The notes beneath the pieces were generated by a model. It ran no database searches, was not told the origin of the DNA, and was given only the letters and a program-made list of their open reading frames with translations. From Clostridia bacterium DTU065 (lineage in GTDB: Bacteria > Bacillota > DTU065), in the NCBI GenBank assembly GCA_001512545.1, contig LFSI01000061.1:1-63383 (forward strand): a stretch of 63,383 nucleotides of DNA. The letters are read 5' to 3'. This document shows positions 43,096 to 46,669 of the stretch, one piece after another. The first letter of the stretch is position 1. Every line of letters begins with the position of its first letter. The translations under genes and the position numbers were made by a program.

Positions 43096-45120
43096 TCAAC
43101 CGCATCTTGAAAATCCGCAGAAAAGACAGGTCATGCAGCCGTCTTCATGCTTCATATGCCCACCGCACTCAGGGCAAGCTCCCATGGAGCTTTCAGCTAC
43201 AGTGGAGGTCTGCTTCACTACATCGGCCATCGGCAGTTTTTCCGACACCATCTCGCTGGCGTGTTCGCCATTGCCGTTTTGGCGCCAGGCAACATAGTGC
43301 TCGATGGCAAGGCCGATGGCATCTGGGCAGGAGAGAACTACTCCGTTTTCTGTCCAGGCAGGTGATGGGCAGCGAATGCCCCTCAGGTGCTTGGTGATGG
43401 CTTCGGTAGATACTCCGGCCCTCATAGCCAGGGAGATCAGCCTGCTGATGGCATCCATCTGGCTTGATGCACAACCTCCGGATTTACCCAGCCTGGCGAA
43501 TAATTCGCAGAGGCCGTTTTCGTCTTCGTTGATGGTTACATACAAACTGCCGCACCCGGTTTTGATCTTTTCAGTCCTGCCGTACGTTACGCTTGGCCGT
43601 ACCCTAGGACTGATCCTGTGGGTGTCCTCTTCCTGGGTCTTGGATTCGGTTTTCCCGGTGCTTAGAACCTGCATCTGTCTGGAACCGTCGCGATAGACGG
43701 TTACGCCTTTGCAGCCCAGCTCGAAGGCGAGTCTAAACACCTTAGCAATATCTTCCCTGGTTGCCTCTTTCGGGAAGTTAACGGTCTTACTTACGGCATT
43801 ATCCACACCGTTTTGCTGGAAGACCGCTTGCATGCGTACGTGCCATTCAGGCGTAATATCGTGAGCTGTCACGAAAACTCTTCTCCAGTGCTCGGGAATC
43901 TCTTCCATATGCTGGATGGAACCTTCTTCAGCGATTTTTTCCATCAGCTCATCTGAATAGAAGTCTTCGCGCATGGCAACTTCTCTAAAGATCGGATGAA
44001 CCTCCAGAAGCCTCTGCTCATCCAAAATCGTCCGAACAAAGGACAGTGCAAACAACGGTTCAATGCCGCTAGAGCACCCTGCAATGATGCTGATCGATCC
44101 TGTAGGTGCGATCGTCGTAGTGGTGGCATTTCTTAGAGCCTGATACTTGTCCTTGTAAATGCTCTTTTCGAAGTTGGGGAAGCTGCCCCTCTCGAGGGCG
44201 ATTGCCTGAGATCTTTCCTTTGAGCGCTTGTCGATGAAGGCCATGATCTGGGCTCCGAGATCCAGAGCTTCCTGTGAGTTGTACGGGATCTCCAACATGA
44301 ACAGCATATCTGCAAAGCCCATTACGCCGAGACCGATCTTTCTGTTGGCTTTGGCCAGCTCTTCAATCTCGGGGAGCGGATAGCGATTGACATCGATAAC
44401 GTTGTCGAGGAAGTCCACTGCCAAATCAACAACCTGCCCCAAGTCTTCCCAATCGATCTTCCCGTCTTTGACGAACTTGGAGAGGTTAATTGAACCGAGG
44501 TTGCAAGCCTCGTAGGGCAAAAGCGGCTGTTCACCGCAGGGGTTGGTGGATTCGATCTCGCCAAGTTCTGGAGTGGGATTGTCGCGATTGATTCTATCCA
44601 AAAAGACGATCCCGGGCTCTCCATTGAGCCAGGCCATCTCCACCATGAGGTCGAACACCTCTCTGGCCCTCAGCTTCTGCACGACCTTTCCGTTGCGCGG
44701 GTTGAGCAGGTCGTACTCTGTATCATGTTCTACTGCTTGCATAAATGCTTCGGTGATTCCGACGGATATATTGAAATTGGTTAGTTCAGTGTTATCGCGT
44801 TTGCAGGTGATGAACTCTAGAATATCAGGATGATCGACTCTGAGGATGCCCATGTTGGCACCTCTTCTCACGCCACCCTGCTTGATCACTTCTGTGCTCG
44901 CGTTGAAAACCTTCATGAACGATATGGGTCCGGAAGCCACGCCGCCAGTTGTCTTGACACTGTCGTTGGCTGGACGAATCCGGGAAAACGAAAAACCTGT
45001 ACCTCCACCGCTTTTGTGGATGAGAGCTGCGTTCTTGACACTTTCAAAAATGCTCTCCATTGAATCCTCAATGGGAAGTACAAAACATGCCGAAAGTTGT
45101 TGTAGTTCTCTTCCTGCATT
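43096..45120 (-). CDS. nrdJ: Class II ribonucleotide reductase NrdJ, exon 2
   Basis: 674 codons of the B12-dependent ribonucleotide reductase. It opens [25 protein letters not shown] and continues with [38 protein letters not shown] (active-site Cys and Glu region), [27 protein letters not shown], and a C-terminal zinc-type cysteine cluster ([26 protein letters not shown]) that may serve in redox relay. It needs group II intron removal to join exon 1 at MPNSPTLM^NAG. It uses adenosylcobalamin, so no oxygen is required. Confidence 0.97.
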
Positions 45121-45146
45121 GTAGGGTAGGGAGTATCCCCCCCTCC

Positions 45147-45180
45147 GAACCGTACGTGCGAGTTTCCCCGCATACGGCTC
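45147..45180 (-). ncRNA. Group II intron domain V
   Basis: A 34-nt hairpin with the bacterial domain V consensus: it starts GAGCCGTATG, has the GGGGAAACUC-type tetraloop region and closes with CGTACGGTTC. This is the catalytic centre of group II introns and the clearest intron diagnostic in the window. Confidence 0.95.
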
Positions 45181-45181
45181 T

Positions 45182-45958
45182 CTAGTCAGCTTGAATGAGT
45201 TTGAGCCTCTTTCTTATCTCCTTGGTCGAGGTCCTATACTTACACGCCAAAGTCTTCTCCAGGCTTCTTTGCAAAATGTACAGCATATCTGCTTCTTCAC
45301 TGGGTTTGGAAAGCAGTGAAAGCAGGCGTTTGAACCTCTTCTCTTCTTCTTTGTAGAAGCTGATGATTCTTTCCATTGGAAGGTTAAGTAGGCTGCTTCT
45401 GTGGATGGGCTTGCCTTCCCGCATATAAGGCCTGAGGAGTTTGGCCTTAAAAGAAGGATCCAGAGTAATTCTGCCTTTTTGCCATCTGAGACCGAGTCCT
45501 TCTAATAAAAAAGACTTAACGTCTCCGTCTGGGCTGAATCTGTAGATGCCCTCATCCCATATAAGTACTTTTTCTGTAGGGAAATACGCTTTCCAGGGTT
45601 TAAGGTAAAAAACCAAGTGCCAGAATCTACCATCGTCGATTTTCTCCTTGATCTCCAAAGGAAAGTCGGAAAGCTCTTCAGCTTTCAAGTCAACTTCCTT
45701 CAGAAAGCCCAGGATTTTGTCGGTCTTAAACTCAACCTGGTAGACTGCACCTAAAACCGCGGCCACTGCGCTTTTCAGCTCGGATAGATGCTCACTTTCT
45801 AGCATTCTGTACCTCTCAGCCTTCAGCGCATCAACGATTTCCCTGCTGTACTCCGGTTTGTAGAAATCCGGATTGTAGAGCTGCCTGTATACCCGTGTAA
45901 GAATCCTCTTCTCAGAACTCCTTCGCAGGCATTCCAAGACAACGAGGCTTTCCTGCAT
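45182..45958 (-). CDS. Intron-encoded maturase-like protein lacking the RT palm
   Basis: 258 aa. The N-terminus [10 protein letters not shown]...[20 protein letters not shown] (about 4-40) matches the RT0 region of group II reverse transcriptases. The C-terminus [27 protein letters not shown] ... [28 protein letters not shown] (about 183-255) matches maturase domain X. Between them there is no RT1-RT7, no YADD and no endonuclease domain; about 140 unrecognised residues fill the space. Normal intron proteins are 400-600 aa. It probably helps splicing but cannot reverse-transcribe. ATG with GGAGG at 8 nt. Confidence 0.8.
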
Positions 45959-46372
45959 TACGCATACCTCCGTTTCTCAGTACCTGGCTGACCTGCTCCC
46001 CTTCGCCATTAGGACGGCGTTACCGCCTTGACTACTACGAGAGCTCCGTAAGTGGCTCTGCCACCTATCCCAAGTTCATTAGCAAACACAACGCATCATT
46101 TAGGCTCTCCGTTCGTTCTTTTCAGCACCTGTCTGGTGCCCTGTCTGGTTTCGGGAATAAAGAAAGACCGATGAACATCTTTCTTTAAAACCAGATGCTT
46201 ACGCAGATCCCCACTTGATCCAGAAGAACTAGAGTTCAAGCAATCCAGCTTTAGCCATGTGATGCTTAGCGACCTGCATGCTGTTGTCCCTTGCGGTTAG
46301 CAGGTTCACTAACAGGACGTTTCCCGAGTCCTGTACCGTTTTCGGCAGTATTTGCTAACTGTCTTGGCGCAC

Positions 46373-46603
46373 CATCAGAGTGGGACTATTCGGCATGAAT
46401 TTGAGACTGGTCATCAGCTCGTAGAAGCGTTCTGCTTTCTTTTTGATGTTGGCTTTCTTATCGTATAGCTTGTCCGCTTCAGCGATGTTGTACGCTACGC
46501 GATAAAACATTTCTTCAGGAGTTTCAAAGGTTCCGTCATCTTTTTTTCTCAGATAACGCTTCTCTAAAACCGTTCGGGCGTTGCTGCTTAGCTCTATTGA
46601 CAA
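46373..46603 (-). CDS. nrdJ: Class II ribonucleotide reductase NrdJ, exon 1
   Basis: 77 codons, MSIELSSNARTVLEKRYL... ending MPNSPTLM just before the intron. The ETPEEMFYRVAYNIAEADKLY and LKFMPNSPTLM motifs are typical of the NrdJ N-terminal region. TTG start with AAAGGAGG at 7 nt; the frame is open to 46654. Without splicing the reading frame ends after VRQDS. Spliced, the protein is 751 aa, normal for NrdJ. Confidence 0.93.
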
Positions 46604-46627
46604 AAAAACTCCTCCTTTCGACACAGA

Positions 46628-46669
46628 AGTAGATGCTCTGTCTATATTTTCCACATTAGAGCATCTACT
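46628..46669. repeat. 12-bp perfect inverted repeat upstream of nrdJ
   Basis: AGTAGATGCTCT (46628-46639) and AGAGCATCTACT (46658-46669) flank an 18-nt AT-rich spacer in the 92-bp gap between spoIID and nrdJ. No T-run. Candidate operator or leader hairpin for nrdJ; it does not look like a pair of NrdR boxes or a cobalamin riboswitch, which would be far longer. Confidence 0.7.

Follow-up and report, generated by a model that had tools for sequence, protein, structure and literature searches.

The window, a stretch of 63,383 nucleotides from Clostridia bacterium DTU065, a member of a little-known Bacillota lineage (contig LFSI01000061.1, genome G000), carries on its minus strand the gene nrdJ, which encodes a class II ribonucleotide reductase and belongs to DNA-precursor synthesis. 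The gene is split in phase 0 by a group II intron, n1, whose 5' end lies at position 46372 and whose 3' end lies at 45121. Its domains V and VI match the Rfam model RF00029 over the full model (positions 1-77) with 73.9 bits at a gathering threshold of 40. Joining the flanks without n1 yields an uninterrupted, in-frame NrdJ, and an nrdJ that is intron-free at this site was found in two genomes of another family, f55 (G064 and G240). With this match, the GTGCG and CTAC ends and the restored NrdJ, the element is a real group II intron, as the initial annotation had stated, and its splicing is predicted. The Rfam models for domains D1-D4 gave no match at the window. The fold of domains I-IV is conserved among four sequences, with 124 consensus pairs, 17 of which show compensatory changes. 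For EBS1/IBS1 of n1, simple pairing gave no unambiguous assignment.

The sole ORF of n1 starts with ATG, and we named its product MatA. The intact frame and the good Shine-Dalgarno sequence described initially are both present. The stop codon of MatA overlaps the first base of the domain V match. GGAGGTATGCGTAATG, located at the Shine-Dalgarno site of MatA, reappears in the parA intron of genome G465. The features of the locus, all on the minus strand, are as follows.

46373..46654 (-): 5' exon of nrdJ from a putative start codon, ending ...FMPNSPTLM (flank joining; the 5' exon of G001 ends at the identical codon)
45121..46372 (-): group II intron n1, 1252 nt, GTGCG...CTAC (common site in G001, G002 and G004)
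45972..46372 (-): ribozyme, domains I-III with the beginning of domain IV (about 86% column identity in four genomes)
45967..45971 (-): Shine-Dalgarno sequence GGAGG in domain IV, 8 nt 5' of the ATG (direct reading)
45182..45958 (-): MatA, ORF of a 258-aa maturase without reverse transcriptase (RT) (ORF, Pfam, relatives)
45857..45958 (-): MatA residues 1-34, RT0-like (hhalign P 93.8, 0/60 shuffles)
45605..45778 (-): MatA residues 61-118, eroded RT2-RT3 remnant ending IDDGRFW (hhalign E 2.8e-4, 0/60 shuffles; BLASTP to the RT-dead IEP of G064)
45455..45604 (-): MatA residues 119-168, short linker in place of RT4-RT7 with PQGG and YADD (alignment)
45197..45454 (-): MatA residues 169-254, LtrA-type thumb/domain X (Pfam, hhalign, AlphaFold, PDB fold match)
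45121..45182 (-): domains V/VI, in which the branch-point A is bulged (Rfam RF00029)
43096..45120 (-): 3' exon of nrdJ to the stop codon (flank joining)

Residual and missing domains of MatA

In Pfam, MatA matches Intron_maturas2 only (20.1 bits, residues 173-246), just below the cut-off of 20.8, which is passed by the MatA proteins of two relatives. RVT_1 (Pfam) and YADD are absent from MatA, and the palm is absent from all four MatA sequences. Profile comparison with full-length IEPs (hhalign) aligned residues 1-34 with RT0, and none of 60 column shuffles scored as well. The C-terminus aligned with the thumb/domain X (P 97.6, E 4.7e-12), above all 60 column shuffles. Hence the only gene of the intron indeed codes for a protein with an RT0-like start and a domain X. 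Between these parts, residues ~61-118 aligned with RT2-RT3 with a score of 33.6 (best of 60 shuffles 20.2), and BLASTP matched the middle of MatA to an RT-dead IEP. Nothing in MatA aligned with RT4-RT7, and an alignment with intact and RT-dead IEPs agrees that this part of the protein, the palm with PQGG and YADD, is missing. The RT-dead IEPs, unlike MatA, align along the whole RT (hhalign P 100). A D/En domain was not found in MatA, whose ORF stops directly after domain X.

An AlphaFold model of MatA built from four sequences reached a pLDDT of about 90 through most of the thumb/X and low confidence for residues 72-144. Its best PDB fold match (Foldseek) was LtrA in the intron RNP (8h2h), with a probability of 0.96 and a weak E of 0.21; the remaining matches were noise. 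Since RT2-RT3 aligns, RT4-RT7 does not, and the model is confident mainly for the thumb/X, the middle of MatA is an eroded RT finger region and no new domain, and the palm is lost. A divergent palm hidden in the middle is ruled out, because the alignment reaches RT2-RT3 only. The initial annotation had described about 140 unrecognised residues and no YADD. YADD is indeed absent, but residues of about 61-118 can now be assigned to RT2-RT3.

Among the full IEPs that were compared, a set without MatK sequences, those nearest to MatA are bacterial and LtrA-type (RT-X-D-En), for example from Subdoligranulum (L114) and Priestia (L113). They share with MatA the RT0, the thumb/X, the start context and the intron type, whereas MatA has no palm and no D/En domain and is less than half as long.

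Conservation of n1 and further introns of the family

The family of G000, f1, is represented by five genomes. The intron n1 was found at the identical nrdJ codon in G001 (same genus, JAQVYS010000053.1), G002 (same family, JAHDNZ010000046.1) and G004 (same family, UBA4881, DHDH01000001.1), each time with an open, palm-less ORF and an equal deletion. These MatA proteins are 62% (G001), 51% (G002) and 51% (G004) identical to that of G000, and the MatA gene is single-copy. The pN/pS values of 0.31-0.52 (Z 7-13.5) indicate purifying selection in every sub-region, with the lowest values in RT0 and domain X. When neutral substitution was simulated to the observed divergence, the frame of MatA was open in 0/2000 simulations per pair. 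The ribozyme core is 80-90% identical in the four genomes versus 54-67% for the ORF DNA. These ratios, together with the conserved and covarying ribozyme, bear out the earlier proposal that the intron protein is kept under selection.

Synonymous divergence is close to saturation, which makes the state of MatA old. The RT-less maturase and its intron have stayed at this nrdJ codon from a time before several genera diverged. As site, deletion, open frames and purifying selection are common to the relatives, MatA cannot be explained as a pseudogene or as an error of assembly. An assembly or sequencing error is ruled out by the identical deletion in four separate assemblies, and a chance ORF or pseudogene by pN/pS and the neutral simulations. 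The relatives were also checked for a recent deletion with decay; they share an old deletion, and their frames are not decayed.

By domain V, G000 (93% complete) has six group II introns; four of them lie in recA, and nrdJ and parA have one each. The recA gene (L012:5242-9952, G000:C31) has an exon of only 30 nt (TTPGGRALKF) between introns 3 and 4, and the recA genes of the relatives contain two to four introns each, at five different sites in total. A search for related RT-less intron proteins returned, besides MatA in the three genomes named above, a second protein, MatB, which is encoded by recA intron 3 (r3). MatB is RT-less, 304-316 aa long, present in 5/5 family genomes and under selection. 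Its recognisable part is a GIIM-type domain X, its N-terminal part has no recognisable match, and it is unrelated to MatA. The reading frame of MatB continues through the catalytic domain V. The parA intron (p) is ORF-less, has a length of ~510-530 nt, lies within the Walker A codons (between KGGVG and KSTT) and likewise occurs in 5/5 family genomes. The recA intron r1 of G000 (L012:5540-6325) and of G001 begins with GTACG, not GTGCG, and r1/r2 end with ...ACTAT, boundaries that are unusual.

L012:7751-8692; L063, L064, L065, L067: MatB in recA intron 3
L013 (G000:C6), L066, L068, L069, L070: parA intron of f1

Across the family, the introns encoding MatA (4/4 assembled nrdJ genes) and MatB (5/5) are always present, and ORF-less sites are variable (nrdJ n2; recA r1, r2, r2b and r4). 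Remnants of ORFs were not detected in the ORF-less introns by tblastn. Similarity of the intron RNAs defines two lineages, one of n1, n2, r4 and probably p, the other of r1, r2, r2b and r3, and f1 possesses exactly one RT-less maturase in each of them. This distribution is the main reason from which we infer an action in trans. Since the ORF-less introns in parA, in recA and, in relatives, in nrdJ have no maturase of their own, the reason for the retention of MatA is probably broader than nrdJ alone.

Reverse transcriptases and RT-dead proteins in related genomes

In G000 no RVT_1 above E 0.165 and no class-C-like domain V were found; an RT from a second gene of this genome was rejected, as no RVT_1 was seen. 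G303, a genome of family f50 in one contig, has a single domain V, an RT-dead IEP and no RVT_1. G001 encodes three RTs, and RT genes of class C introns occur in it. In G002, in G004 and probably in G064/G240, class-C-like intron pieces are broken at contig ends, and all f1 genomes are draft assemblies. At the contig ends L040, L044 and L047 of G002, multi-copy class-C-like introns collapse and the RT genes are missing from the assembly. A lack of RT in all relatives is therefore ruled out by the RTs of G001 and by the class-C-like pieces. Because G001 has RTs and the other drafts break class-C-like introns at contig ends, the absence of RT is firm for G303 only and likely for G000.

Other families contain intermediates, namely RT-dead IEPs of 385-415 aa, in which YADD is replaced by FGAE, LGEE, YEEN or YEDQ. 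In f55, nrdJ has the n2 site only, and the intron there encodes an RT-dead IEP (390 and 414 aa in the two genomes) with FGAE or LGEE instead of YADD and with PQGG lost. The n2 introns of f1 are sequence homologues of those of f55 (313-402 bits) and are ORF-less. The frames of the f55 RT-dead IEPs, too, extend into domain V. In f50, the parA intron occupies the same codon as in f1 and encodes RT-dead IEPs in G303 and G465 (YEEN, YEDQ). In G466, of the same family, YADD and PQGG are still there and the endonuclease is frameshifted, with an assembly gap. Although the codon is identical, the parA ribozymes of f1 and f50 are no closer to each other than to n1.

L017:2179-3351; L082:1417-2661: RT-dead IEPs of f55 (FGAE, LGEE) in nrdJ n2
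L083:1492-2661; L133 (minus strand), 405-aa frame; L134 (minus strand): IEPs of the f50 parA intron

In the phylogenetic tree, the dead f50 IEPs group with that of G466 (81/87) and with the intact IEPs of Subdoligranulum and G367 (82/96), and MatA and the f55 IEPs are on long branches. AU tests gave p 0.15 for all RT-dead IEPs as one clade and p 0.51 for MatA together with f55. A single loss of RT and several losses both fit the tree and these tests. Viral contigs contained ordinary full IEPs only.

Proposed function of MatA and comparison with known systems

Organellar IEPs without RT activity are well known, with MatK as an example. MatK resembles MatA as a group II IEP without RT activity that retains domain X and resides in an intron of a housekeeping gene. 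In contrast to MatK from the chloroplast trnK intron, MatA is bacterial, comprises 258 aa and is accompanied by a second, unrelated RT-less maturase. According to PMC4424553, MatK keeps RT5-RT7 and its RT0-4 is no longer alignable, whereas MatA keeps RT0 and a remnant of RT2-3 and loses RT4-7. The same source reports binding of MatK to several introns. As in organellar-type maturases, domain X of MatA is kept, RT activity is lost and the frame is under selection; its role in splicing is predicted. The initial description as a bacterial counterpart of RT-less organellar maturases thus agrees with the absent palm and the open frame in four independently assembled genomes.

For bacteria, PMC4424553 described in 2015 the intron O.i.I2 in radC of Oceanobacillus iheyensis, whose IEP has an open frame without YADD, as 'the only known example', and this review argues that non-mobile intron derivatives do not last in bacteria. 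O.i.I2 and n1 are both introns of bacterial housekeeping genes with an open IEP frame lacking YADD. However, O.i.I2 is an isolated ML-class case without YADD and other motifs, whereas the palm of MatA is physically deleted and this state is common to several genera. O.i.I2 is also single, whereas G000 has two RT-less maturases and ORF-less introns in one genome. The IEP of TeI4h from Thermosynechococcus elongatus splices several ORF-less introns in trans and is presented in PMC2882425 as a 'common splicing apparatus'. It is a full, active RT of mobile introns mostly outside genes, whereas the RT of MatA is gone and its introns lie in housekeeping genes. A group II intron in recA of Geobacillus kaustophilus (Chee and Takami 2005) is listed in PMC4424553; the recA of G000 has four, one of which encodes an RT-less maturase. 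No later bacterial RT-less maturase was found in the literature searched, which left out most subscription journals. RT-less maturases as such are already known; new here is a bacterial one whose palm is deleted, that is long-lived and that stands in a multi-intron setting.

Judged from the sequence comparisons, it is highly probable that n1 is a formerly mobile, now immobile and vertically kept intron of nrdJ and that MatA is a maturase for splicing only. From the IEP of n1 the entire RT palm and the endonuclease have disappeared; what it retains is the thumb/domain X and an N-terminus (RT0, finger remnant) that would bind RNA. MatA would be translated from its own Shine-Dalgarno sequence in domain IV of the unspliced pre-mRNA and bind the DIV/DI region of n1, holding the ribozyme in its active fold. 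Branching and exon ligation by domains V and VI would follow and restore nrdJ, a presumably essential gene. MatA should be unable to copy the intron, so that n1 would not be mobile. Binding by MatA, its promotion of splicing, its action in trans and the immobility in vivo are all predictions of this kind. By its title, as listed in PMC4424553, Cui et al. 2004 report a preference of a maturase for action in cis and a requirement for both its RT and its X domain in promoting splicing; hence, the RT-less MatA would need a changed binding mode.

The distribution of the introns suggests that MatA acts in cis and probably also in trans on ORF-less introns. It probably assists those of parA and recA r4 in G000 and nrdJ n2 in the relatives, and MatB probably serves introns of the r1, r2, r2b and r3 type in recA. 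Whether MatA and MatB serve as general factors in trans for the two intron families of nrdJ, recA and parA, in a splicing system that is permanent and no longer mobile, is evenly balanced in our assessment. It is possible, if somewhat doubtful, that MatA is needed in cis only and that the ORF-less introns self-splice or use other host factors, without a shared apparatus. LtrA-type IEPs often favour their own intron, and the parA intron and n1 of f1 show modest similarity (about 77-86 bits). However, n2 has its own RT-dead maturase in f55 and none in f1, so that its splicing there either passed to a trans-acting helper or requires none; moreover, the introns bearing MatA or MatB were never lost.

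The n1 ribozyme may be able to splice unaided, since domains I-VI look intact and are conserved. MatA could then be kept for another role, for example by covering its own Shine-Dalgarno sequence to repress the unspliced nrdJ mRNA, or by regulating nrdJ. LtrA-type IEPs bind the intron region that here holds the Shine-Dalgarno sequence, as established for LtrA. We nevertheless regard such a role as unlikely, because RT0 and domain X, which are the parts linked to splicing, are under the strongest selection, and several ORF-less introns of G000 are without any other maturase. Very unlikely is a MatA that remains retro-competent with an unseen RT, as a split enzyme or with an IIC-type RT in trans, on a still mobile n1. 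RT genes of class C introns do exist in G001 and probably in other relatives, and every genome except G303 is a draft, but neither RVT_1 nor a class-C-like domain V was seen in G000, the one-contig genome G303 is free of RVT_1, different genera share the intron sites, and MatA is encoded by a single-copy gene. That n1 is a mobile element in decay after recent inactivation, with a pseudogene, is hardly credible. A protein that loses its palm and endonuclease has degenerated in a sense, and the G466 IEP has a frameshifted endonuclease, but four genomes have open frames although their synonymous divergence is saturated, pN/pS is well below 1 and no neutral simulation kept the frame.

The reading of MatA as a splicing-only maturase would have consequences beyond nrdJ. 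RT-less maturases beside ORF-less introns, as seen here in recA, parA and nrdJ, are also what plant organelles have. One step proposed towards the spliceosome is a general maturase for introns without their own (PMC5709842). If true, the lineage of G000 would be in the state proposed as a step to organellar and spliceosomal splicing, and other Bacillota families would show intermediate steps. The RT-dead relatives provide a graded series for the order in which RT, endonuclease and ORF disappear; this series also bears on whether domain X and a finger remnant suffice to promote splicing. With small proteins, short introns and reporters in E. coli, the bacterial system should be tractable. The findings suggest that bacteria, like chloroplasts, may convert introns from mobile to fixed elements relying on dedicated splicing helpers.
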